Of a stretch of 13,681 nt of DNA, positions 292-13,022 are shown in pieces (the first letter of the stretch is position 1; the number at the start of each line of letters is the position of its first letter). The position numbers and the translations under genes are program-made. The stretch covers positions 1 through 13,681 of the forward strand of contig JAJRVC010000530.1 in assembly GCA_024277475.1 (NCBI GenBank), read 5' to 3'. This DNA comes from Deltaproteobacteria bacterium (GTDB lineage: Bacteria > Desulfobacterota > Desulfobacteria > Desulfobacterales > JAFDCJ01). The notes under the pieces were generated by a model. The model did no database searches, was not told the origin of the DNA, and was given only the letters and a program-made list of their open reading frames with translations.

Positions 292-747
292 TTAACCTCC
301 TCCTCCGGTAGCGGTGCCCAGCAGTACCAGTGCAAACACAAAGGCAAAAACGGCAAAGCCCTCCACCACAGCCGCCGGCGCGAGGGAAATGCCGAACACC
401 TCGGGTTTACTTTTAGAAACGCTGATGGATGAAGCGCAAGCATACCCCTGGTAAACAGCGCTGGCCATCAGGGCCAGCCCGGTTAACACACCGATGCCAA
501 AAATGGCTGCGGCAGATTCCGGTTTGATGGCTTCCCCGAAAGTCAATGTAACGACGATCCCATAGATCACCTGGGAAGACGGCATCGCCGATACGCCTAT
601 AAACCGGCCGTAGCCGCTTTCGGTCTCCAGCATGGCGCCGATTGCCGCCTGTCCGGCCCTTGAGCAGCCGATGATACTACCGACGGCTCCCAGAGCCAGC
701 GGGGCGAATACGCCCAACCAACCCAAAGCTAATATCATGTTTTCCAC
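292..747 (-). CDS. ntpK: V-type ATPase membrane rotor subunit K (proteolipid), probable Na+ site
   Basis: A 151-residue, very hydrophobic protein with four membrane helices in two hairpins, the 16-kDa V-type proteolipid layout. It forms the rotor ring that carries the coupling ion. Only the second hairpin has the carboxylate, E129 in VVEGFAVFAF; the matching first-hairpin motif is MPSSQVIYG (residues 55-63). Compared from memory with Enterococcus hirae NtpK, the Na+ ligands L61, T64, Q65, Q110 and E139 correspond to M55, S58, Q59, Q100 and E129, and Y68 to Y62. I chose the GTG at 747 because AGGAGA lies 7 nt upstream, against 16 nt for the ATG at 738. This start gives a 13-bp overlap with the end of subunit I. 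The frame extends upstream to 807, but that part encodes the subunit I tail region in another frame and is not K-like. The protein ends in four glycines. Confidence 0.93.
   Translation of the reverse strand: MENMILALGWLGVFAPLALGAVGSIIGCSRAGQAAIGAMLETESGYGRFIGVSAMPSSQVIYGIVVTLTFGEAIKPESAAAIFGIGVLTGLALMASAVYQGYACASSISVSKSKPEVFGISLAPAAVVEGFAVFAFVFALVLLGTATGGGG
296..306 (-). promoter_or_regulatory. Extended ribosome binding site of subunit E, overlapping the K C-terminus
   Basis: On the minus strand the bases read GGAGGAGGAGG, followed by 7 nt before the ATG of subunit E at 288. The same bases encode the terminal Gly-Gly-Gly-Gly of subunit K. The match to the anti-Shine-Dalgarno sequence is far longer than at any other start in the window and suggests strong, coupled translation of E. 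Confidence 0.7.
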
Positions 748-2528
748 GATTCTTTCTCCTTTCTTGCAAAGGCATTGAATGGATGCCCTTCTTCGGAAAT
801 ACTCCACCTAAAAAATTCAATAAAGTTAAGACGCAGGCCATGGATAAATCCGCTACTTAAAGCCAATACAAAGTTCAAGGTGTGTCCGAACAGGGCAATC
901 AGAAGCGCGAACAGGATTCCAACCCCCGGCAGCGCTTCTTTGACCTGCCAGGCCATATCGTTAAACGTGCCTGCCAGGGACGCGCTGGCCAGGCCGAGGG
1001 CAAAAAGCCGCAGATAGCTCAGCGCGTCCCCGAAAGCATTGGAAAGACCGGTAAGCCCGCCAAGCCCTTTTAGCAGGCGCTTCCAGAGCGGGCCCTCGGG
1101 ACTGCTGAATAGCACCACGCCTGCCAGCCCCAGCACCATGGCCGCAATGCCGTAAGGCTGCAAAAAGGCCAGGGTATCACCATGGGAGGCAGCCTGCCAG
1201 AGGGCTGCGGCACCCAAAAAGATAAAAATCCAGGCGGTGGGTACGGCCGCCCGAATCGAACGCCGAAAGTGCAAAGCGGTGACGGCATTAGCGACAACAA
1301 GATGGAAAACGCCCAATAAAATCGATAACTGCATCATGAGGCTAAAATCCATCATGTCGACAATTTTCAGTTTGGCCGGCAGACTGCCTGCAGCCGGGGA
1401 AACGCCAAAATAACTCCCGACGATCACGCCATAGACCACTCCTGCACCCACCAGGGTTGCCAGCAGAATGCGAAAGCGTCGGCCGGCATCCGATCGCCCC
1501 ATTTTTTTCCAAAACGCAGCCACAATCAGACCCAGACTGGCCGAATATCCGGCATCGGAAAAAATCATCGCAAAAAAGAGGGCAAAAGAAAAAAACACTA
1601 TCATTGACGGATCCCACAGCCAGTATTTGGGTGTGGTATAAAATGAAACCAGATCCTGCCCGCCGGCCAACCCCGGTGGATTTTGCATTAAGGTGGGCGG
1701 TGTTTCCTCCGGTTGGGGCTCTGTCACTTCAATGACCAACCCCTTGTCACCGGCATATTGCTGCAACCTGGCAACGCTGTTGACAGGGGTCCAGGCCTGC
1801 AATGCAAAGATGGGATCCTCGGCATAGGTCTGCTGCGTCGCCGCGGCCACGGCCGCTTGATCTTCCAGGCGATCAATACTGCGGGCAAATAGAGTACACC
1901 AGCGGGTCAAACCGGTGCGCTCGGCCTGCCGGTCTTCCAGCTCCAACTCAACCGCTTCCAGCCGATCTTCCAATTGCGAAAGGGGTTTGTTGCCGGTGCG
2001 AACCCGTTCAACCGGCATTCCTTCCGGTTGGTTTTCTGATATCACCACTACATAGCAAAAACGATTGTCGCGTGATATCATCTCCCATAGGAGGTCCGTA
2101 GCTTCAACTTTTTTTAGGTCGTTATGAGGGACGACATAAAACCACAGCCTCAGATTGTTGAGTGCTTCGCGCTGCGGAAAAGAAAACTCACCCCAGGGCT
2201 TCAGATCTGCCACCCGGCCCATCAGAAAATCTCTTTCAGCCTCCAGGTCTTGAATTTTATCCAATAGCGCAAGTGTCTGTTGTTCGATTGCATGGGCATC
2301 AAATTTTTTGGCATCCCGTACCTGCCGCCGCCTATTCGGACAGCTGGTGAGAAATCGAAGGGCTTCCCGGGCACGCGAAGAAGGCCCTCCCCCCTGGTGA
2401 AGGATCTCTTTCTCGGGGGTTAGCGGAATCAGATGCAGACAGCCGAATTTTTGCAGGTTAGAGAGGATCTGCTGCCGGTCATCTGTGTGGCCATAAAACG
2501 TCACTTTTGCCAGCGATACGATACTCAT
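735..2528 (-). CDS. ntpI: V-type ATPase subunit I (a-subunit, ion channel stator)
   Basis: A 597-residue homologue of the V-ATPase a/I subunit. Residues 1-300 are a soluble cytoplasmic arm with coiled-coil stretches (about 80-110 and 182-205), which joins the peripheral stalks. Residues from about 308 onward form the membrane domain with about seven or eight helices. Family signatures are FSDAGY at 323-328, SYLRLFALGLA at 504-514 and GHTLNFVLALSSGFIHGLRL at 548-567. R507 is the conserved arginine that faces the rotor carboxylate and separates the two half-channels. Length is near the lower end for bacterial subunit I. The start at 2528 has an AAGGGAT-like ribosome site. The gene lies 118 bp downstream of subunit D and overlaps subunit K by 13 bp, so I and K are probably translationally coupled. 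Confidence 0.95.
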   Translation of the reverse strand: MSIVSLAKVTFYGHTDDRQQILSNLQKFGCLHLIPLTPEKEILHQGGGPSSRAREALRFLTSCPNRRRQVRDAKKFDAHAIEQQTLALLDKIQDLEAERDFLMGRVADLKPWGEFSFPQREALNNLRLWFYVVPHNDLKKVEATDLLWEMISRDNRFCYVVVISENQPEGMPVERVRTGNKPLSQLEDRLEAVELELEDRQAERTGLTRWCTLFARSIDRLEDQAAVAAATQQTYAEDPIFALQAWTPVNSVARLQQYAGDKGLVIEVTEPQPEETPPTLMQNPPGLAGGQDLVSFYTTPKYWLWDPSMIVFFSFALFFAMIFSDAGYSASLGLIVAAFWKKMGRSDAGRRFRILLATLVGAGVVYGVIVGSYFGVSPAAGSLPAKLKIVDMMDFSLMMQLSILLGVFHLVVANAVTALHFRRSIRAAVPTAWIFIFLGAAALWQAASHGDTLAFLQPYGIAAMVLGLAGVVLFSSPEGPLWKRLLKGLGGLTGLSNAFGDALSYLRLFALGLASASLAGTFNDMAWQVKEALPGVGILFALLIALFGHTLNFVLALSSGFIHGLRLNFIEFFRWSISEEGHPFNAFARKEKESWKT

Positions 2529-2646: not shown

Positions 2647-3255
2647 TCACTCCGCTGCTGCTTGTTGCTGCCGCATTTTTTTTGTTAGTTTGGAACGTAC
2701 CACGGCGGCCCGTTCGACATCGGCTAAATATATCTGGATCTTCTGGATATTTTTCTTGGCAGTGGGGATCAGAATTTTGTCGAAAAGATTGACACGCTGG
2801 GTGACTTTGCGCTCGGCCTTTTCCAGCAAACGCACCCGTTCTGCCGCCACCTGAACCCTGGTTTTTTGTTCGACCATTTGCTTAAGCTGGTCAACCAGCA
2901 CATCCACCCAATGGGGCTTGGCCAGCATCGAATAGGGCCTAATGTTGCACTTTACTTCCATCAGGGCGGGAAGCTTAACGCCCACCAGATTCTCCTCTTC
3001 GAGCTGAAAGGATTCCACCTGAACCAGCCCCGAAACCTCAATTTCCCGATTCGCAAGCATCGGCAACTGTTCCGCGACCCGTTTATTTAACTTTTCAACC
3101 TCAGCCTCTGCTTCGACCAGCTGCTGCCGGGCACGCTTTAATTCACCGGAAAGCTGCATCCGCTTGAGATCCAGCGACGGCAGCACCCGCTCATACAGGC
3201 GCATATCTTCGCGCTGCTTCTGAAGCCCGCTTTTGCTCAAGGATAGTTTTGCCAT
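2647..3255 (-). CDS. ntpD: V-type ATPase subunit D (central rotor shaft)
   Basis: A 202-residue soluble protein, close to the usual 200-215 of subunit D. It forms the central shaft that turns inside the A3B3 head and passes torque to the membrane ring. Two long helices are evident: residues about 1-75 (LSKSGLQKQREDMRLYERVL, then LDLKRMQLSGELKRARQQL) and about 125-195 (LVDQLKQMVEQKTRVQVAAE onward). They would pair as the antiparallel coiled coil typical of subunit D. The motif VNLFDKILIPTAKKNIQKI near the C-terminal helix is also family-like. The start at 3255 has AAGGGGGT 6 nt upstream. It lies 222 bp downstream of subunit B, an unusually long gap for this operon, and 118 bp upstream of subunit I; both gaps hold short repeats. 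Confidence 0.92.
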   Translation of the reverse strand: MAKLSLSKSGLQKQREDMRLYERVLPSLDLKRMQLSGELKRARQQLVEAEAEVEKLNKRVAEQLPMLANREIEVSGLVQVESFQLEEENLVGVKLPALMEVKCNIRPYSMLAKPHWVDVLVDQLKQMVEQKTRVQVAAERVRLLEKAERKVTQRVNLFDKILIPTAKKNIQKIQIYLADVERAAVVRSKLTKKMRQQQAAAE

Positions 3256-3463: not shown

Positions 3464-3489
3464 CCATTCGACATTTGTCATTCGTCATT
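3464..3489 (-). repeat. Heptamer array AATGACG covering the stop of subunit B
   Basis: Reading the minus strand, 3489 to 3464 gives AATGACG, AATGACA, AATGTCG and AATGGT, three clean 7-bp units and a partial fourth. The first two units encode the last residues N-D-E and the TGA stop of subunit B, so the array defines the end of that gene. The units run inverted with respect to the copies at 3273-3290. Confidence 0.6.
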
Positions 3490-4800
3490 CTTTTTAAAAT
3501 ATTTATCAATCAACTCCAGCTTCATAAGCAGTTCCTGGGATTCAAAACATTCGGCCAGTGTCTCCCAGCAACGATCCAGGGCTTCAATCACCGGCATGGA
3601 AACCCGGATATCCATAAATCTCTCACGAAAAAGCTGTCCGAATTTAAGCAATTTTTCATCGAAGGCGGACAACTCGAAAGCCATGGCCTGCTTCTTCTCG
3701 GCATCCTGCGCATTGGAGTATAAACGGATCATCGTGTTCATGATCTGGCTGTGATCCTCACGGGTCGCCTTGCCGACCACATGCTGCTTCAAACGCGACA
3801 GGGAGCCGAAGGGATCGATAAATCCATCATGCAAATAGAACTGGCCTTCGGTGATGTAGCCGGTGTTATCCGGTACCGGATGGGTAACATCGTTGCCGGG
3901 CATCGTTGTCACCGTGAGGATGGTGACCGAGCCGGCACCTTTGAAATCACAGGCTTTTTCGTAGCGCATGGCCAGCTGGGTATACAGATCACCCAGGTAG
4001 CCGCGGGCGGCCGGAATACGTTCCAGGGAAATACCGATTTCTTTCATGGCGTCCGCATAAGCGGTCATATCCGTCAATAGCACCAGCACCCGCTTACTTT
4101 CCTCCACAGCGTACTTTTCGGCCACGGCCAGCGCCATATCCGGAATCGACAACCGCTCCACAATCGGGTCGGCGGCTAAGTTGATATACATCACTGTACG
4201 GTGAAAAACGCCATGCTCCTCAAAAGCGGAGCGAAAAAAATGGTAGTCATCAAAAATCAACCCGAGTCCGCCAAAAACCACAATGTCGGCATCGGCCTGA
4301 AAACCGATACGTGCAAGCAATTCGTTATAAGGTTCGCCGGCCACCGAGAAGATCGGGATCTTTTGACTTTCCACCAAACAGTTAAACAGATCGATCATGG
4401 GAACTTCGGTTTGGATCATTTTATCGGGCATCACCCGCATCATGGGGTTTACGGTCGGACCTCCGACCTCGATTGTCGGATCCGAGGATAGATCGGGACC
4501 GTCATCAAAGGATTCCCCGGACCCCCGAAAAATTCTTCCCAAAATATTATCAGAGTAAGTCACATTTTGAGGATGGCCGAGAAAACGCACACTGGCGTCG
4601 GTTGACAGCCCCTTGCTGCCGGCAAATACTTGCAGGCTGACAATATCACGATCGAGTTCAACCACCTTGGCCTGAGAGGTTTCACCATCGACATTCTCGA
4701 CGATGGCCAGATCACCAAAAGCGGCACCCTTGGCCTTTACCCGGATCGTATCTCCGACAATCTCCAGCACACGTGTGTGTCGGGTTAACTCTGGGAACAT
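3478..4800 (-). CDS. ntpB: V-type ATPase subunit B (non-catalytic nucleotide-binding subunit)
   Basis: A 440-residue V-type B subunit, which alternates with catalytic subunit A in the A3B3 head and contributes the arginine finger. The N-terminal beta-barrel domain covers residues 1-70. The nucleotide-binding domain has the degenerate P-loop region FSVAGEPYNELLARI at 151-165 in place of a GxxxxGK[ST] Walker A, which is normal for B. The Walker B-like strand is VLVLLTDMT (238-246). PVPDNTGYITEGQFYL (309-324) and GSLSRLK (332-338), with probable arginine finger R336, are diagnostic. The sequence is closest, from memory, to Chlamydia/spirochaete V-ATPases. The ATG at 4800 has GAGGAG 10 nt upstream. 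It is the first gene of this transcription unit; subunit A, usually directly upstream, is absent. The last residues come from a heptamer repeat. Confidence 0.96.
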   Translation of the reverse strand: MFPELTRHTRVLEIVGDTIRVKAKGAAFGDLAIVENVDGETSQAKVVELDRDIVSLQVFAGSKGLSTDASVRFLGHPQNVTYSDNILGRIFRGSGESFDDGPDLSSDPTIEVGGPTVNPMMRVMPDKMIQTEVPMIDLFNCLVESQKIPIFSVAGEPYNELLARIGFQADADIVVFGGLGLIFDDYHFFRSAFEEHGVFHRTVMYINLAADPIVERLSIPDMALAVAEKYAVEESKRVLVLLTDMTAYADAMKEIGISLERIPAARGYLGDLYTQLAMRYEKACDFKGAGSVTILTVTTMPGNDVTHPVPDNTGYITEGQFYLHDGFIDPFGSLSRLKQHVVGKATREDHSQIMNTMIRLYSNAQDAEKKQAMAFELSAFDEKLLKFGQLFRERFMDIRVSMPVIEALDRCWETLAECFESQELLMKLELIDKYFKKNDE

Positions 4801-5263: not shown

Positions 5264-6196
5264 ATGGAAAAAAAAATTCTGCTGGCTGTGGATGATTCAC
5301 TTCAATCGAAAGATGCCGTCAAATACGCAGTTGCCATATCCTCGACGGTAAGAAATCTTCATTATGTTCTGTTTCATGTCCAGCCGATGATATCGCATTA
5401 TCTGCTAGATGAGGCCCGGACAAGTCCGCAAGCAAGGGCTGAATTGGATAAAGTGAATAAGAAAAACGACGCATCGGCCCGCAAAACACTTGAGCAATAC
5501 CAAAATAATATGGTGCGCATGGGAATTGGCGAAGATCGAATCGAAATTGTGACCCGGCCGAGAACATTGGGTTTGGCCAAAGATATTATCGATTTCGGTC
5601 ACGTGGGCCGTTATGACGCGATTGTTGTAGGTCGCAGGAGAATGACGCGTCTTCAGGAAGTGTTTATGGGGAGCGTATCCTCTAATTTGTTGGAGCACTC
5701 CCAATTCATACCGGTTTGGCTTGTGGACGGCGAGGTTGCTCCCGACAAAATAATGGTTGCCGTTGATGGTTCAGAAAGTTCACTTCGAGCCGTCGACCAT
5801 ATCAGCTTTATGTTGATGCGCAATCCAAATGTAGAAGTCACACTTTTGCATGTAATGGGTAACGCCAAAGAATTTTACGAAGAAGGCCTCGATGAAGAAC
5901 CGTCGGCGGAATTAGAAGACCTGGTGTCAAGCGATGACAAAAAGCGGATCGACCAATTTTACTCAACAGCCGTGAAAATGTTCAAGGATGTCGGCCTGTC
6001 CCAAAGCCAGATTGATATTCAAACGGTGGAAGGCCGGAGGCGCCCCGGTAAGGTCATCATCGAAACCGCCGGTAAAGGTAACTTCGGGACTGTGGTGATT
6101 GGCAGACGCGGAATCAATAAAGCGTTTTTCACGGGCAGTGTGTCGCACTATGTTATCAATAAGGTTTCCGGCTGTGCGCTGTGGGTCGTTTCATAA
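5264..6196 (+). CDS. Tandem-domain universal stress protein (UspA family)
   Basis: A 310-residue soluble protein made of two UspA domains, residues 1-156 and 160-310. Each opens with the family strand and aspartate (KKILLAVDDS at 3-12; DKIMVAVDGS at 161-170) and ends with an ATP-loop-like motif and hydrophobic strand. Domain 1 has GRRRMTRLQEVFMGS (123-137), which keeps the 9-residue spacing but has Arg in place of the second Gly. Domain 2 has GRRGINKAFFTGS (280-292), which keeps that Gly but has 7 residues before GS instead of 9. Nucleotide binding is therefore uncertain. Usp proteins act in stress and starvation responses, and some modulate transporters. It is the only plus-strand gene, divergent from the V-ATPase and convergent with mrpG (73-bp gap), and is flanked by an exact 16-bp repeat. 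The start has GGAG 9 nt upstream. Confidence 0.93.
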   Translation: MEKKILLAVDDSLQSKDAVKYAVAISSTVRNLHYVLFHVQPMISHYLLDEARTSPQARAELDKVNKKNDASARKTLEQYQNNMVRMGIGEDRIEIVTRPRTLGLAKDIIDFGHVGRYDAIVVGRRRMTRLQEVFMGSVSSNLLEHSQFIPVWLVDGEVAPDKIMVAVDGSESSLRAVDHISFMLMRNPNVEVTLLHVMGNAKEFYEEGLDEEPSAELEDLVSSDDKKRIDQFYSTAVKMFKDVGLSQSQIDIQTVEGRRRPGKVIIETAGKGNFGTVVIGRRGINKAFFTGSVSHYVINKVSGCALWVVS

Positions 6197-6269: not shown

Positions 6270-6620
6270 TTATTTCAGGGCCGGTTTGGTCTCACGTGCC
6301 AGATCGTCACGTCGTGCTCCTTTCATTGGAAGATTGATTCGTTTTGCGGCTGAAGCAATAGCATGAGCCGTTGGCGGGCCGGCCGCCAGCAAGAAAAGAA
6401 TCAACACCAGTGCATGCCCCCAGCTCACAGGGGTCAGGACGGCAGCCGCAACGAGCAGCAACACCACGCCGAATATGCTCACCATCCCGGCTGCATGTAG
6501 GCGGGTATAGACGTCAGGTAGACGGAAGTATCCCAAAACACCGACTACCGAAAAAAATGTTCCGATCACTACGGCGGCAATGGCGAAGATGTAAAAAACA
6601 GTTTCCATGAAAGTCACCAT
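6270..6620 (-). CDS. mrpG: Mrp Na+/H+ antiporter subunit G
   Basis: A small membrane subunit of the multi-subunit Mrp (Mnh/Pha) cation/proton antiporter, about 116 residues with three predicted membrane helices. The diagnostic PhaG/MnhG motif GYFRLPDVYTRLHAAG is at residues 30-45. The start is chosen at the ATG at 6620, whose A is shared with the TGA of mrpF (TGATG), a coupling arrangement. The ATG at 6608, giving METVFYIFAI, is also plausible. The open frame runs upstream to 6836, but that extension only shadows mrpF. It is the last gene of the antiporter operon and ends 73 bp from the convergent stress protein gene. No convincing terminator hairpin is visible in that gap. The charged C-terminal tail, KGARRDDLARETKPALK, is predicted to be cytoplasmic. 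Confidence 0.93.
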   Translation of the reverse strand: MVTFMETVFYIFAIAAVVIGTFFSVVGVLGYFRLPDVYTRLHAAGMVSIFGVVLLLVAAAVLTPVSWGHALVLILFLLAAGPPTAHAIASAAKRINLPMKGARRDDLARETKPALK

Positions 6621-6895
6621 CAAAACATGCGTTTGTCCGAAATGTATTTGGCAAAGGTTATAATCGTGATATAGCCGATGGCGGCCAGTCCAAGGGCTAC
6701 ATCGATGAATATCTTCTGCCGGTGTATCAGGGCGGCCAGAACCAGAACCGCCATGGTCAGATTGCTGAGCAAATCCGAGGCCATCAACCGGTCGATAACA
6801 TTTTCTCCGTTCCACAGTCTCCAGGCGGCCAGGCACATGAGTAGAACATGGATGAGTAGCGAAATGTGTAGGATTGTAATCAAAAGCTGTTCCAC
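6620..6895 (-). CDS. mrpF: Mrp Na+/H+ antiporter subunit F
   Basis: A 91-residue membrane protein with three helices, the usual size of MrpF. Family marks are VIDRLMASDLLSN (33-45), matching the conserved DR-x-x-A-x-D pattern, and FIDVALGLAAIG (63-74). D35 corresponds to a conserved aspartate of the family. The start is a GTG at 6895, supported by GGGAG about 7 nt upstream. It lies 27 bp downstream of mrpE, and its stop overlaps the mrpG start by one base. Like the other small subunits it is thought to be needed for assembly of the whole antiporter rather than to work alone. Confidence 0.92.
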   Translation of the reverse strand: MEQLLITILHISLLIHVLLMCLAAWRLWNGENVIDRLMASDLLSNLTMAVLVLAALIHRQKIFIDVALGLAAIGYITIITFAKYISDKRMF

Positions 6896-6922
6896 GATAA
6901 ACTCCCGGTCAAATGCCGTTTT

Positions 6923-7402
6923 TCAGTCCAGAATCTTTCTCAACATTTCACCCTGAATTTTTTGAGCTGCCCCGGCTTGTTTCTCAGTCAAGTAAACGTC
7001 TAGGCTATGGATATACATGGTACCGTCGTCATCTATCTCCACGAACAGTTCGCCGGGGGGTAGGGAGATCGCGTGGGCGCTGATCGCCCGGCCGAATTCG
7101 CTTTCACAACCGGCGGTAATGGCAACGATTCCGGATTTGATCGGCAATTTCGGATGCAGGATGATCAGGACCATTTGAATACCGCTCCTGGTGACGTTGT
7201 ACAGGAGAATCCCGATAAATTTCGCCAGTGCCATGAAGGCCGGGGGCAACTGCGACCATCTGACAGGGAAGCGCGGGAACCGGAGCAGGCTCAAGATTCC
7301 GGTAGCGATAACAAATCCCAGAATAAAATTCGAAAACTCCAAATTGGCCGACAGCGCCAGATAGGTAAACACCAGGACGAACATCGGAACTATCGTATGC
7401 AT
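6923..7402 (-). CDS. mrpE: Mrp Na+/H+ antiporter subunit E
   Basis: A 159-residue MrpE/MnhE-type protein. The N-terminal third is hydrophobic (membrane helices at about 3-35 and 59-79). The C-terminal half is a soluble domain with the family pattern: LYNVTRSGIQMVLIIL, then SGIVAI, then a SLPPGELFVEIDDDGTMYIH stretch, then a LDV segment near the end. A TTG three codons upstream (7411) overlaps the mrpD stop, but I prefer the ATG at 7402 because GGGGA lies 10 nt before it, whereas the same site would be too close to the TTG. With this start the gap to mrpD is 5 bp. Function is as a required accessory subunit of the Mrp complex. Confidence 0.9.
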   Translation of the reverse strand: MHTIVPMFVLVFTYLALSANLEFSNFILGFVIATGILSLLRFPRFPVRWSQLPPAFMALAKFIGILLYNVTRSGIQMVLIILHPKLPIKSGIVAITAGCESEFGRAISAHAISLPPGELFVEIDDDGTMYIHSLDVYLTEKQAGAAQKIQGEMLRKILD

Positions 7403-7407
7403 AGTCG

Positions 7408-8898
7408 TCAATTCCCCAGAACCGCTTGAATATAGATTAGTGGATTAACCAGCCAGCGCACCGTCTCACGGGACAATGCTACCAGTGGGTCTGCGAAAAG
7501 ACCAAGAAACAAAATCAGGGTGACAAGCAACAACGGTGCATAGAGACTGTCGCCTGCCGGTTTGGTGGTTATCCCCTCGGCCGGTGATAGCCACCAGATA
7601 CGCATAAATGCTCTCATGGTGTAAACCAATGTCAATACGCTCGCAAGGCCGATCAGCAGCAGTGTCCACACCTGTTCGGCTTCAAGACCGCTTTTGAAAA
7701 GCAGCATTTTACTGATGAAACCGTTGGTGGGCGGGATGCCGGCCAAACCGAGACCACCGATAAAGAATAAAGCACCAGCCAGGGGTAGCGGTCTTCCCAC
7801 GCCGGTTACAACCTTAAAAGCTGCCGATTTGACCGATGCCCGGCTGGCGATATAGCCGGCCAGCATGAGCATGGCCGCTTTGGCGATGCTGTGGTTAAAG
7901 GCGAAAACGAGAGCCGCTGTCAAACTTGACGGTGTAGCCCATCCGATGCCCACCAGCATAAATCCGACCTGAGCCAGCGTGGAATAGGCCAGCATCCGTT
8001 TGACATTATGGGTCCCGATGGCCGACGTCCCACCGAAACAGATGCTGGCTATCCCCAGGACAATTAGGGCTTGCTGCATCAAAGATGAATAGCCGACGAA
8101 CAGCAGCGTGGTCATCCGGATGAATCCGTAGACACCCAGCTTTACAACCACCGACGAAAGCATGGCGCTAACCGGTGTCGGCGCCGCGGTATGAAAATCA
8201 GGCTGCCAGAAGTGAAAGGGAAACGTGGCGCTTTTGATCATAAAGGACGCCATAAGAAAAGCCACGGTGAGCGGCACCAGCGATTTCTGCGGGTCAGCGG
8301 CGATCGCTGCAGACAGTTGGGCCATGTTCAGAGTGCCGCAGCTCACATACAGGGCGCCGATGGAAAGCAGTAGCAGAATAGCGGCGATTTGGCTCATGTA
8401 AAAGTATTTATACGCGGCCTCGGTTCCGAAGCGGTCATCTGAAATCGCCGTCAGCACGGTGCTGGATATTGCCAGCAGTTCCACAAACACAAAGAGATTA
8501 AAAATATCTCCGGTCAGAAAGGCGCCGGTCAATCCGGTTGCCAAAAAAAGAAACAGCGGATAGAAAGTTGGATACTTAACGCAGCTGTCCTTGCTCCCGA
8601 TTGCATATAAAACGCCCATAACCAGCACGAACTGACTCATCAAGGCGAACATCGCCGAAAGCAAATCGGCAACCAGTGTAATACCGAACGGCGCGTTCCA
8701 GCCTCCCACCTGCAACACCACCGGTTGTCCGCTGTGCCGGACCATAAAGAGGAGCCATGCGGTGCAGACAAAACCCGCGGTCATGGCTCCCACGGCCAAC
8801 CAGCTCTGTACACGCGCATGCCGTTTAAAAATCAGCGCAATGAGTCCGCCGACAAGCGGGGTTATGATAGGCAGTATGACCAGGTGGTCGAGGAGCAT
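7408..8898 (-). CDS. mrpD: Mrp Na+/H+ antiporter subunit D (complex I NuoM/N-like)
   Basis: A 496-residue membrane protein with about 14 helices, homologous to the proton-pumping antiporter-like subunits of respiratory complex I. The key ion-path residues are present: E140 in NLFVFVELLAISS, K222 in MIKSATFPFHFWQPDFHTAA, K253 in VVKLGVYG, H336/K340 in FNHSIAKAAM and K397 in GFISKMLL. The motif HTAAPTPVSAMLSS (236-249) is typical of MrpD. The ATG at 8898 follows an AGGA 11 nt upstream. It lies 97 bp downstream of mrpC, the only gap of that size inside the operon, and 5 bp upstream of mrpE. Together with MrpA it is thought to form the proton and cation translocation path. NuoM/N or a formate hydrogenlyase subunit is ruled out by the surrounding mrp genes. 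Confidence 0.95.
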   Translation of the reverse strand: MLLDHLVILPIITPLVGGLIALIFKRHARVQSWLAVGAMTAGFVCTAWLLFMVRHSGQPVVLQVGGWNAPFGITLVADLLSAMFALMSQFVLVMGVLYAIGSKDSCVKYPTFYPLFLFLATGLTGAFLTGDIFNLFVFVELLAISSTVLTAISDDRFGTEAAYKYFYMSQIAAILLLLSIGALYVSCGTLNMAQLSAAIAADPQKSLVPLTVAFLMASFMIKSATFPFHFWQPDFHTAAPTPVSAMLSSVVVKLGVYGFIRMTTLLFVGYSSLMQQALIVLGIASICFGGTSAIGTHNVKRMLAYSTLAQVGFMLVGIGWATPSSLTAALVFAFNHSIAKAAMLMLAGYIASRASVKSAAFKVVTGVGRPLPLAGALFFIGGLGLAGIPPTNGFISKMLLFKSGLEAEQVWTLLLIGLASVLTLVYTMRAFMRIWWLSPAEGITTKPAGDSLYAPLLLVTLILFLGLFADPLVALSRETVRWLVNPLIYIQAVLGN

Positions 8899-8995
8899 TT
8901 GTAAATATGTCCTAGGGTCTTACAACGTTGTTTGAATCTTGCGAAATACAGTTGACTGACTGGACATTCCCTTCAAACGGTCCCAAACACCGAAT

Positions 8996-9331
8996 TTAGT
9001 TCTTCAACCCGTCAATCGCATCCCCATCACAGGTATCATATCGCCTGGCGATAACAAACAGCATGGCCAGAACGAATGCCGTCACACCGAAACTGATTAC
9101 GATAGCCGTCAATATCAGAGCCTGGGGCAGCGCATCGCTAAAGTTCCCTGCGGTTATACCGACGTAAGGCGCCTCCTGGCCTGTGTATGCGCCGGTAGAG
9201 AGTAGAAAGAGATTGACGGCATTGGCCAGCAGCATCAATCCGATGACTGCCCGGATCACATTCCGTCTCAATATATTGAAAAGGCCAACACCAAATGTCA
9301 GTCCGATGGCAAAAGCGATCATAATTTCCAT
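8996..9331 (-). CDS. mrpC: Mrp Na+/H+ antiporter subunit C (NuoK-like)
   Basis: A 111-residue protein with three membrane helices, homologous to NuoK of complex I. Family motifs are IGLMLLANAVNLFLLSTG (30-47) and SDALPQALILTAIVISFG (65-82), the latter matching the near-invariant D-x-L-P-Q-A-L-x-L-T-A-I-V-I pattern. The ATG at 9331 has GAGGA about 7 nt upstream. The gene overlaps the end of mrpAB by 13 bp, so the two are probably co-translated. The acidic C-terminal tail after residue 95 (RRYDTCDGDAIDGLKN) is predicted to be cytoplasmic. The 97-bp stretch after it, before mrpD, shows no gene or clear signal. Confidence 0.94.
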   Translation of the reverse strand: MEIMIAFAIGLTFGVGLFNILRRNVIRAVIGLMLLANAVNLFLLSTGAYTGQEAPYVGITAGNFSDALPQALILTAIVISFGVTAFVLAMLFVIARRYDTCDGDAIDGLKN

Positions 9332-12219
9332 AATGTATCCTCTTCTTCCGGATGGCCCATCGCGTTGAGCATATGCATAACGCTTCCCACAACGCTGAGC
9401 GCAATAGCGGACTCGAATAAAAACGACGTGCTCAAGTGTATGCCCGCCGGCAGTTTGAGCCCCATCATCTCATCGAAATCTACATTAGATAGAAAACTAC
9501 CGCTGACAAACATCCCCGCTGTACCTGTTATAATGGCCAGCAGTATGCCCCAGCTGATAAACCGCGAAGGTCTGATCCAGGACAGATGTCGGCGGGTTTC
9601 GTGGTAGCCGAAAACCACATACCAGAAACCGATGCCGATGCTGGTGATCACACCGGCTGTAAATCCATCGCCGGGCTGGTCGTGGCCGTACAGCAGATCG
9701 CATACGCTGATGACCATCGCCAAGGGTAGGACAATTCGTGCCAGAACTCGAATCGGGGGGGCAAGTTTATTGCCCCCGACGCCGAGTGTTTTGAAATCCG
9801 GCGTTTCCGCCTTCCCCCATTCATCGCCCATCGCATCGATATCTTTGTGCTTTCGCGTACCAAACCAAAGTAGTGTATAGATCCCGAGACCGGCGATGCT
9901 GAAAACCGCAATTTCGTTCAGGGTGTCGATTCCGCGAAAATCCGTAAGAATCGCCCCGACGATACTTTTGGAGCCGGTTGCTTTGGCGTTAGATTCAAAA
10001 AAAGGTGTCAACTCACTTATGCGCGGCCGTGAGAGTAAGGCTGTAAGCGACATGAGCATCACAACGATTCCAAATGCGATGGAAACGAGCGCATCGCGCC
10101 AAATGCCCAATCTGTGTCGACTTAGTGCCAGTTTCTGCGCTTCCCGCAGCTTTTTCCCCGGCAGAAGTGATAACGCAAGTACAAGAATAATTGTCAGCAA
10201 GATGTCGACTACGATCTGCACCAGGGCCACATCCGGTGCCGACTCCAGCGCCATGAGCACGGCAACACCCAGCCCTGATGCCCCGAATGCCAGAATAGCG
10301 AAGAAATCGTTGGCCAACAGAACACAGGCCATCGAGGTTCCGGCGACAACCAACAGGGCAACTATCTTTAGCAGCACGAGTTCGCCGGCAAATGATAGAG
10401 CCGGTGCCGTTATCGCAGACAGATCCACCGGCGGCGGAAAGCCGCCGAAAAAGAAAACCAGCACCAGGGCCGAAGCCAGCATGGTCACCAGGTAATGACG
10501 CAATTTACCGTGCTGTAACCGTGTGGCACCCGCAGCCAGAATATCAATACCCTGGATAAGCCTTGTAAACAGATCATTTAATGTCGGTAGGGACGAAACG
10601 CCCTGCATCCATACAGTGATCCGGCGACGATAGATAAAAATTACAGTTCCGATGGAAATGGCAATCATGGACAACAACAGCGGAACATTCAATCCGGTCC
10701 ACAGGGCCAGTGAAACTTTGACACTTGCGCCGTAGGCCGTCCCGGCAGCGTTGCTCAGCAGGGCGGCTCCTTCTTTCGGACCGGGAAGCTGCCCCAGTAC
10801 CAGAGACAGGATGGCAGGAACTGCCGGAGCCAAAAGCATCGCGGCAGGGGCCTCACGACCATGGATGTCCGGATCCCGGGGCCGGCCCAAAAACGTATCC
10901 CATATCAGCCGGCCGGATATGGCCAGCATCAGCGCTCCGGTCAGAACACTCGCCAGCGCAAAAATCCAGGCAACAACGGTGGGCAGCGAGCGGTGAACCG
11001 CGGTCGCCAGAAGGGTTTCCTTTGCCAGAAAGCCAAACAGGGGCGGCAGGCCGGCCATCGAGAGAGCAGCCAGCCCGCCGATGGCAAACGTGAAAGGCAT
11101 CGATCGGCGCAATCCGCCCAACCTCCTCAGATCCCTGGTTCCGGTTTCGTGATCGACGATACCGACCACCAGGAAGAGCGTGCTCTTGTAGAGGGCATGA
11201 GCCAGGATGCCGATGATCAGGGCTTTAAAGGATATAGCCATGTCCTGCCCGATCATCATCATCAGGATACCGAGCTGGCAGATCGTTGAATAGGCCAGCA
11301 CGGCCTTCAGGTCGTTTTTCTTTAGGCCGAGAACAGCCCCGGTCAGCATAGTGGTCATCCCGGCAATGGTCAGCAGCCAGAACCAGGTTTCGGTCAGTCC
11401 CATCACAGGGTGCAAACGCGCCATCAGGTAGATGCCGGCCTTGACCATGGTCGCCGAATGCAGATAGGCGCTGGCGGGCGTGGGGGCGCTCATGGCATCC
11501 GGCAGCCAGATGTGAAACGGAAATTGGGCACTCTTGGTAAATGCGCCAAGGGCGATCAACCCGAGTATCAGGGGATAATAACCACTTTCACGTAGAGCCT
11601 CTCCGCTGGTCAGAATAGAGATAAAGCGTGTGTCACCGACCACATGGGCCACAAAAAGCAGGCCGATCAGCAACGCAATCCCCCCACCGGCAGTGATGAA
11701 CAAGGCCTTAAAAGCACCCTTCCGGGCGGTTTCGTCCTTGAATTTGTAGGCGACCAGGAGAAACGAAACGATGCTGGTCCCTTCCCAGAAGATGAACAGA
11801 GTCAGCACATCACCGGCCATGACCAGACCCAGCATAGCACCCATGAAGAGTAAAATATAGGTAAAAAACCGCCAGGCACCCGAATCGTGTTTGAAGTATT
11901 GCCCTGCGTAAATGACCACAACAGTACCGATAAACGTGATCAGCAGGGCAAAAAGCGCACTTAGACTGTCATAGTAAAGACCAGCATTTAAACCCAGTGA
12001 CGGTATCCATGCAACCTGCCAGGTAAAAGCCAGGTTGGCTTGCAGGTCTGGAATATACTGCAGCAGTACGAGGAAGGCTGCCAGCGGTGCCAGTGCCAAC
12101 AACCAGCTGAGTTGAATAATGGACAGTCGCCGATTCAAGGCCGGCAGACCGAATAAGGCGGCAACCAGTGCACCGGTGAAGATAATGAAAAGCGGCAATA
12201 AAAGCAACGGATCATTCAT
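9319..12219 (-). CDS. mrpA: Mrp Na+/H+ antiporter fused subunits A and B (NuoL/J-like)
   Basis: A 966-residue fusion of MrpA (about 1-800) and MrpB (about 820-966), the arrangement of group 2 Mrp systems such as PhaAB. Residues 1-450 are the NuoL-like antiporter core with E146 (TLFIFWEGTSIVSF), K229 (FTKSAQFPFHIWLPDAMSAP), H254/K260 (LHSATMVKAGIYL), H341/K345 (AHALYKS) and K400 (GFLAKE). A NuoJ-like part follows, with ESAPDVALVQIVVDILL (659-675) and ILTDFRGIDTLNEIAV (757-772). The MrpB domain shows the YGHDQPGDGFTAGVI signature (844-858). About 20 or more helices are expected. The usual glutamate of the Q-x-x-V-E stretch is Asp (D672). The ATG at 12219 has only a weak ribosome site. It begins 40 bp after the sdhB stop and overlaps mrpC by 13 bp. 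Confidence 0.95.
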   Translation of the reverse strand: MNDPLLLLPLFIIFTGALVAALFGLPALNRRLSIIQLSWLLALAPLAAFLVLLQYIPDLQANLAFTWQVAWIPSLGLNAGLYYDSLSALFALLITFIGTVVVIYAGQYFKHDSGAWRFFTYILLFMGAMLGLVMAGDVLTLFIFWEGTSIVSFLLVAYKFKDETARKGAFKALFITAGGGIALLIGLLFVAHVVGDTRFISILTSGEALRESGYYPLILGLIALGAFTKSAQFPFHIWLPDAMSAPTPASAYLHSATMVKAGIYLMARLHPVMGLTETWFWLLTIAGMTTMLTGAVLGLKKNDLKAVLAYSTICQLGILMMMIGQDMAISFKALIIGILAHALYKSTLFLVVGIVDHETGTRDLRRLGGLRRSMPFTFAIGGLAALSMAGLPPLFGFLAKETLLATAVHRSLPTVVAWIFALASVLTGALMLAISGRLIWDTFLGRPRDPDIHGREAPAAMLLAPAVPAILSLVLGQLPGPKEGAALLSNAAGTAYGASVKVSLALWTGLNVPLLLSMIAISIGTVIFIYRRRITVWMQGVSSLPTLNDLFTRLIQGIDILAAGATRLQHGKLRHYLVTMLASALVLVFFFGGFPPPVDLSAITAPALSFAGELVLLKIVALLVVAGTSMACVLLANDFFAILAFGASGLGVAVLMALESAPDVALVQIVVDILLTIILVLALSLLPGKKLREAQKLALSRHRLGIWRDALVSIAFGIVVMLMSLTALLSRPRISELTPFFESNAKATGSKSIVGAILTDFRGIDTLNEIAVFSIAGLGIYTLLWFGTRKHKDIDAMGDEWGKAETPDFKTLGVGGNKLAPPIRVLARIVLPLAMVISVCDLLYGHDQPGDGFTAGVITSIGIGFWYVVFGYHETRRHLSWIRPSRFISWGILLAIITGTAGMFVSGSFLSNVDFDEMMGLKLPAGIHLSTSFLFESAIALSVVGSVMHMLNAMGHPEEEDTLWKL

Positions 12220-12244: not shown

Positions 12245-12264
12245 TTTGATTGTCAATAATCAAA
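12245..12264. other. Short inverted repeat at the sdhB stop codon
   Basis: TTTGATT (12245-12251) and AATCAAA (12258-12264) form a 7-bp stem with a 6-nt loop over the sdhB stop codon. The T-run lies on the plus-strand side (12265-12268), while on the transcribed minus strand the stem is followed by CCGCGG. It is AT-rich, so at most a weak processing or attenuation hairpin between sdhB and mrpAB. Confidence 0.3.
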
Positions 12265-13022
12265 TTTTACCCTTATTAAATAGTGCTGCTTTCAAAAACT
12301 CCCGATTAAAGCGGGCAATATGGGTAATGGATACTTCTTTGGGACAGGCGCTTTCACACATTCGATGATTGGTGCAGTTGCCGAAACCGCAGTTATCCAT
12401 CTCTTTGAGCATGGCCAGCACCCGCTGGCTCGCTTCCGGCTTACCCTGGGGCAGCAGCGCAAACTGGGACACCTTGGCGCTGACAAACAGCATGGCCGAT
12501 GCGTTGGGGCAGGAGGCCACGCAGGCACCGCACCCGATGCAGGCAGCAGCGTCCATGGCTTCTTCCGCATTTTCCTGGGCTATGGGCATCCGGTGGCCCC
12601 CCGGTATCCACGGATATGTAACCGCCGGCTTGTATGATCTTATCCAGGGCACCACGGTCCACGATCAGGTCTTTGATCACTTTAAAGGCCCTGGCCCGAA
12701 AGGGTTCCACCACAATGGTATCTCCATCGCTGAACGCGCGCATGTGCAGCTGGCAGATGGTCATGCCTTTGCCGTGACCATGGGGAATGCCGTTGACCAT
12801 CGCCCCACAGGTACCGCAAATTCCTTCGCGACAGTCATTGTCGAATTCGATCGGTTCTTTGTCCTCGAGAATCAGCTTCTCATTTAGAGCATCCAGCATT
12901 TCCATAAACGACATGTTGGGGTCCACATCTTTGACAGGAATGGTTTCGAACCGGCCCCGTTCTTGCGGTCCTTCCTGGCGCCAGATTATCAGAGTGATAT
13001 TGATTTTTTCAGGTTCACTCAT
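12260..13022 (-). pseudogene. sdhB: Succinate dehydrogenase/fumarate reductase iron-sulfur subunit, frameshifted
   Basis: The electron-transfer subunit of complex II (SdhB/FrdB), which passes electrons between the flavoprotein and the quinone-binding cytochrome b, is split over two frames. Frame 1 starts at the ATG 13022 (AGAGGAG upstream; 1-bp overlap with the sdhA stop) and encodes the plant-type [2Fe-2S] domain with C64, C69, C72 and C90 (DNDCREGICGTC, then GMTIC). It keeps family sequence to VDTGGPPDA and then reads nonsense to a stop at 12441. The second frame resumes with [20 protein letters not shown] and carries the [4Fe-4S]/[3Fe-4S] domain, [12 protein letters not shown] and [12 protein letters not shown], to the stop at 12260. 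Joined, it would give about 257 residues, the normal size. All cluster cysteines survive, so the break is recent, an assembly error, or bypassed by frameshifting. The junction lies at 12585-12589. Confidence 0.88.

Follow-up and report, generated by a model that had tools for sequence, protein, structure and literature searches.

The ion used by a rotary ATPase can be predicted from its rotor proteolipids: according to the accessible text of PMC2359735, predicted Na+ rotors carry a polar residue at the position of Q65 in NtpK, the rotor subunit of the Enterococcus hirae V-ATPase, whereas predicted H+ rotors have Leu, Ile or Val in this position. The Na+-type motif rule of that study has been applied by ProAD (PMC11738941), which, in the part of the article available to us, predicts 4,927 of 9,167 A-type enzymes to be Na+-specific. 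Here we describe subunit K, the rotor proteolipid of a V-type ATPase encoded in a 13,681-nucleotide stretch of DNA from a Deltaproteobacteria bacterium (assembly GCA_024277475.1, contig JAJRVC010000530.1; the whole of this stretch is hereafter called the window). As judged from the sequence, K carries a sodium-type ion pocket with every known ligand residue.

In the preliminary description of this DNA, positions 292-747 were treated as a gene and no strand was named; the frame is real and belongs to the minus strand, where it encodes 151 residues, with a GTG start at 747 and its stop codon at 292-294, whereas the plus-strand translation of the same interval contains stops. The sequence AGGAG lies 8 bases upstream of the GTG, and an alternative in-frame ATG is present at 738; the 148-residue form starting from this ATG was used in the homology searches. 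Pfam identifies K as ATP synthase subunit C (PF00137), with two stretches matched, and NCBIfam assigns it to NF007200, 'ATP synthase subunit C', with 164.9 bits (cut-off 108). The residues named previously (M55, P56, S57, S58, Q59, V60, I61, Y62, G63, Q100 and E129) are all found at their positions in the minus-strand translation. Codon n starts at 747-3(n-1) and spans two further bases downward, and the codon coordinates below were obtained by this arithmetic.

292..747, minus strand: V-type ATPase subunit K (rotor proteolipid), 151 residues, two hairpins, one predicted Na+-type site; PF00137, NF007200
559..585, minus strand: codons of the motif M55-P-S-S-Q-V-I-Y-G63, hairpin 1 of K
448..450, minus strand: codon of Q100 of K (aligned to NtpK Q110)
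361..363, minus strand: codon of E129 of K (aligned to NtpK E139)

In a phmmer comparison with PDB sequences, the top match of K is NtpK (2bl2; E 2.8e-4, 24.4 bits), followed by subunit K of 8yy1/6qum, which we take to be the rotor of the H+-coupled Thermus V/A-ATPase. Residues M55, S58, Q59, Y62, Q100 and E129 of K align to L61, T64, Q65, Y68, Q110 and E139 of NtpK, with both motifs ungapped, and each ligand position is identical or equivalent (Thr to Ser, Leu to Met), as originally claimed. The claim of one carboxylate per four helices holds as well: Ser57 in hairpin 1 occupies the place that Glu129 has in hairpin 2. The corresponding stretch of the Thermus rotor, L-P-E-T-L-V-I-F-G, has Leu at the place of Q59 and Phe at that of Y62, and retains the Glu and the Thr; the Thermus rotor also keeps a helix-1 Gln. 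Because the Thermus rotor shares these other residues, the argument for Na+ rests on Q59 and Y62 rather than on six residues equally; the alignment to NtpK and an H+-type rotor, proposed beforehand as a check, shows that it is these two positions that separate NtpK from Thermus. K also conforms to the motif rule in its principal Glu (E129) in the C-terminal helix of the hairpin, the Gln in the preceding helix (Q100), the hydroxyl of S58, the polar Q59 and the supporting Tyr, Y62. The four-helix, two-hairpin fold of K resembles that of 2bl2 (22% identity in the structural alignment); as an indicator of ion type, the fold was discarded, given that eukaryotic V-ATPase proteolipids fit equally well.

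Relatives of the gene were collected in a DNA scan of a genome collection with the patterns SSQxIYG[IV]VV and VEGFAVF[AS], which yielded 331 relatives, and the best 80 were taken. The M/L-S-Q-Y-Q-E residue set is present in 78 of these 80 loci (71 M-S-Q-Y-Q-E and 7 L-S-Q-Y-Q-E), a sample biased to the Na+ site, as the scan patterns include part of the motif. Among the proteins, the closest 120 of 3,634 homologue hits all contain the full set, 117 with Met and 3 with Leu. The Na+ residue set is thus near-fixed in the K family, and this conservation points to more than a chance match. A natural variant of the site is found in a Chromatiaceae metagenome-assembled genome (L061), where Asn replaces Gln59. 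In locus L009, the alignment of K ends before E129 and the contig looks frameshifted there; K of L098 likewise appears to be frameshifted ahead of E129, and in both cases a draft-assembly error is perhaps responsible.

We propose that K forms the rotor ring of a bacterial V/A-type ATPase that is coupled to Na+ and encoded by seven genes in the arrangement B-D-I-K-E-DUF2764-A. In this ring, one Na+ per K subunit would be held between the two hairpins by the M55 carbonyl, S58, Q59, Q100 and E129, with Y62 steadying E129. The earlier claim that this ATPase pumps, or is driven by, Na+ stands with respect to the Na+-type site, whereas ion transport is predicted from the published motif rule only; we estimate the probability that Na+ is the ion of the enzyme in vivo at roughly 0.8. 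The alternative, H+ coupling in the cell despite the Na+ ligands, is improbable in our assessment, and several observations that favor it weigh against Na+ coupling. According to the accessible portion of PMC2359735, Na+ rotors can carry H+ in the absence of Na+, and PMC5376962, as far as its text is available to us, describes an N-type ring for which Na+ was predicted and which was found to be H+ selective. The Thr and Gln ligands, as noted above, are still present in the Thermus rotor, and the 80-locus sample is biased in the way indicated. The stator, subunit I, agrees with Na+ in its best match, subunit I of a sodium V-ATPase (8wci, 92.9 bits, as against 64.5 for the runner-up). Its residues R507, R566 and E571 align to R573, R629 and E634 of 8wci chain P, but the Thermus-type stator also has arginines at these places, so that they do not separate Na+ from H+. 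Against H+ coupling, Q59 and Y62, which are absent from Thermus K, are present and near-invariant in the K family, and an H+ machine is already there: among the relative genomes in which companion genes of the V-ATPase were read, PF00137 was sought in nine, and all nine encode an F-type c subunit with the motif E-S-L-x-I-Y, that is, with the H+-type Leu at the diagnostic place. The same genomes thus hold a natural pair for the ion rule, with Leu in the F-type c subunit and Gln in the V-type K at the deciding residue.

Because an H+-type ATPase coexists in the lineage, a separate Na+ role of the V-type enzyme is likely, which would most probably make it a second rotary ATPase, coupled to Na+; in the available text of PMC11738941, genera with several rotary ATPases (1,137 of 1,388) are reported usually to mix both ions. 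The V-type motor would in principle be reversible. Since the relatives also carry the H+-type F-ATPase, ATP-driven Na+ export appears to be the likeliest job of the enzyme, a direction that we favor by a slight degree. The enzyme might instead be Na+-coupled and act mainly as an ATP synthase on a sodium gradient produced by Rnf or NQR. The accessible part of PMC12018189 reports that the E. hirae V-ATPase forms ATP under a sodium gradient, with a Na+/ATP ratio of 3.2, and each of the two nearest relatives has a candidate sodium pump gene over the cut-off, RnfC in G001 and NqrA in G002; across 13 genomes, RnfC is over the cut-off in three (G001, G006 and G007) and NqrA in two (G002 and G040). 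We nevertheless consider the synthase role rather unlikely, given that the F-type c subunit in all nine relatives points to another machine for ATP synthesis and that one site per four helices would yield a low ion-to-ATP ratio, which would suit pumping. Among the listed papers on V-ATPases in methanotrophs and anammox bacteria, and in passages of PMC10427799 and PMC2936114, nothing on the ion of this K family was seen.

Apart from the H+-type c subunit, five of the nine relative genomes encode a further c subunit with an E-S-T or E-S-A motif. In G003 and G004, this extra c subunit is a single hairpin with E-S-T-A-I-Y, presumably of the N-type, and in G001, G002 and G005, a multi-hairpin c subunit is accompanied by a one-hairpin partner. 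Long F-type c subunits of this kind are encoded in Desulfobacterales by frames of 324-492 residues with four (once five) hairpins, located beside a one-hairpin c gene with E-S-T-G-I-Y; Gln replaces the ion-binding Glu in one to four of the hairpins (15 genomes read). A frame of the multi-hairpin type is listed in 24 of 194 genomes of the order of G001, part of which were read, and the neighbors in three loci resemble, by eye only, the atpI, a and b genes. The loci are as follows.

L136:13477-14740 (G001): long multi-hairpin c
L134:5832-7092 (G193): long multi-hairpin c
L135:7132-8413 (G005): long multi-hairpin c
L081 and L090 (G002): long multi-hairpin c
L114, L117, L118, L120-L122, L124 and L126-L130: further multi-hairpin c loci

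The F-type ring of Acetobacterium woodii consists of mixed c subunits, and the combination of a multi-hairpin and a one-hairpin c subunit in Desulfobacterales resembles an extended version of this ring. These multi-hairpin subunits look more unusual than the Na+-type K itself; among the literature matches listed, no title or abstract start mentions them in Desulfobacterales, which is not proof of their absence from the literature. In G001, where K is 99% identical to that of the window, each of three kinds of rotary ATPase is represented by a c or K subunit. Tentatively, and with somewhat less than an even chance, the organism might run three rotary ATPases with different gearing: an F-type enzyme for H+, a second F-type enzyme for Na+, with a mixed ring of one-hairpin c subunits and four-hairpin c subunits in which some hairpins have lost the carboxylate, and the Na+ V-type pump. 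The V-ATPase would then act as a single gear among three.

The V-ATPase operon of the window is located on the minus strand in the order B-D-I-K, followed by the first part of E, with subunit A beyond the window; the genes other than K are the following.

3478..4800, minus strand: V-type subunit B, 440 residues, first operon gene in the window; NF002555, 694 bits (cut-off 431)
2647..3255, minus strand: V-type subunit D, 202 residues; PF01813, NF002565 195.9 bits (cut-off 189)
735..2528, minus strand: V-type subunit I (stator a), 597 residues; PF01496
1..288, minus strand: V-type subunit E, start only, leaving the window; NF002424 59.6 bits (cut-off 241), 96 of ~225 residues

The complete order, B-D-I-K-E-DUF2764-A, is seen in the nearest relative, Desulfobacteraceae bacterium 4572_123 (L001; K 99% identical), in which a longer copy of subunit E, without a Pfam match, lies at L001:6357-7034; no subunit F or G was seen in this operon among frames of at least 90 residues. 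The same order is found in 60 of the 80 loci and in partial form in 18, some on short contigs, and the remaining two show B-A-D-I-K, possibly an artefact, as the A and B queries may cross-match. Split arrangements were observed in L057, where I and K are preceded, at a distance of several kb, by the best-matching B and D, and in L051, where the B match lies 7 kb ahead of D. Subunit A of L001 (L001:7711-9503) is apparently frameshifted near 9213-9297, perhaps by a draft-assembly error. Rfam gave no matches at gathering scores in the window and in L001-L005, and no Na+ riboswitch was seen there.

Upstream of the ATPase operon, the window contains an MrpA-G gene set, separated from it by a gene for a double universal stress protein.

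5264..6196, plus strand: double universal stress protein (PF00582), between the Mrp and ATPase operons
6270..12219, minus strand: Mrp-type antiporter operon (Pfam, NCBIfam)
9319-12219, minus strand: fused MrpA/B, with MbhD, MbhE and MnhB domains
8996-9331, minus strand: MrpC
7408-8898, minus strand: MrpD
6923-7411, minus strand: MrpE
6620-6895, minus strand: MrpF
stop end at 6270, start near 6620 (uncertain), minus strand: MrpG

In NCBIfam, nearly all matches to Mrp subunits of the window fall short of the curated cut-offs, and the models are named 'Na+/H+' as well as 'K+/H+'; the exchanged cation may be K+. The preliminary description linked this antiporter with the ATPase in a Na+ cycle. The neighboring operon is indeed present and such a cycle is possible, whereas a conserved partnership is not supported, given that MrpA lies near the ATPase in 1 of 13 relative genomes, and Mrp linkage was largely rejected as support for such a cycle. 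That the two operons work as a single Na+ cycle and are kept side by side by selection might be suggested by the distance of 1.5 kb between the Mrp end and the ATPase operon start in the window and by the Mrp genes that start 3 kb past subunit A in L002. We regard this as unlikely: MrpA was detected at E 1e-60 or better in only two of the 13 genomes (two copies in G002 and one in G009), and only the 73% MrpA match of G002 lies near the V-ATPase, downstream of it there, behind DUF1538 and PII-like genes, versus upstream in the window. Among the best 80 loci, many of which have short flanks, Mrp is found in the flank of L002 only, on a different side of the ATPase from that in the window, where the stress protein gene on the opposite strand intervenes. 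G001 has no MrpA at E 1e-60, and a PF07399 'putative Na+/H+ antiporter' follows subunit A. Between subunit A and Mrp in L002 (L002:13743-15901), two genes encode a membrane protein of 596 residues with DUF1538 and a PII-like protein, which may be an ion transporter and the regulator of it. Elsewhere in the window, sdhB/frdB (12260-13022, minus strand) has a frameshift close to six consecutive C (12597-12602) that leaves the Fer2 and 4Fe-4S halves in different frames; this may be a sequencing error or a real change.

Of 194 genomes drawn from the order to which G001 belongs, 6 exceed the NF007200 cut-off, as against none of 14 control genomes, and the relatives of K at 65-76% identity come, by record title, from Gammaproteobacteria, Planctomycetota, Nitrospirota and others; this patchy occurrence suggests a scattered, transfer-like distribution. 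With this finding, a Desulfobacterales-related lineage joins the bacteria predicted to have a Na+-type V-ATPase. The Na+-type K is a well-supported, ordinary prediction, with thousands of such enzymes already catalogued, and because they are so widely predicted, it alone leaves the general picture unchanged. Among the known systems, NtpK of E. hirae is alike in its two-hairpin subunit with one carboxylate, in helix 4, in its fold and in Na+ ligands that are identical or differ by Thr to Ser and Leu to Met, but shares only the 22% identity given above, and the E. hirae operon differs in gene order from the B-D-I-K-E-DUF2764-A arrangement of the relatives of K. The Thermus K (6qum, 8yy1) belongs to the same superfamily and matches K in Glu, Thr and the helix-1 Gln, but is a single hairpin with Leu and Phe at the places of Q59 and Y62. 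By curated models, there is a likeness to the NF007200/PRK09621 set: K, B and D pass the cut-offs of NF007200, NF002555 and NF002565, which we take to represent the Chlamydia/spirochaete/Bacteroides-type set. The Chlamydia operon has the order E-X-A-B-D-I-K, whereas that of the window starts with B. The Chlamydia enzyme is called a sodium-dependent A-type ATP synthase in the available text of PMC12682751.
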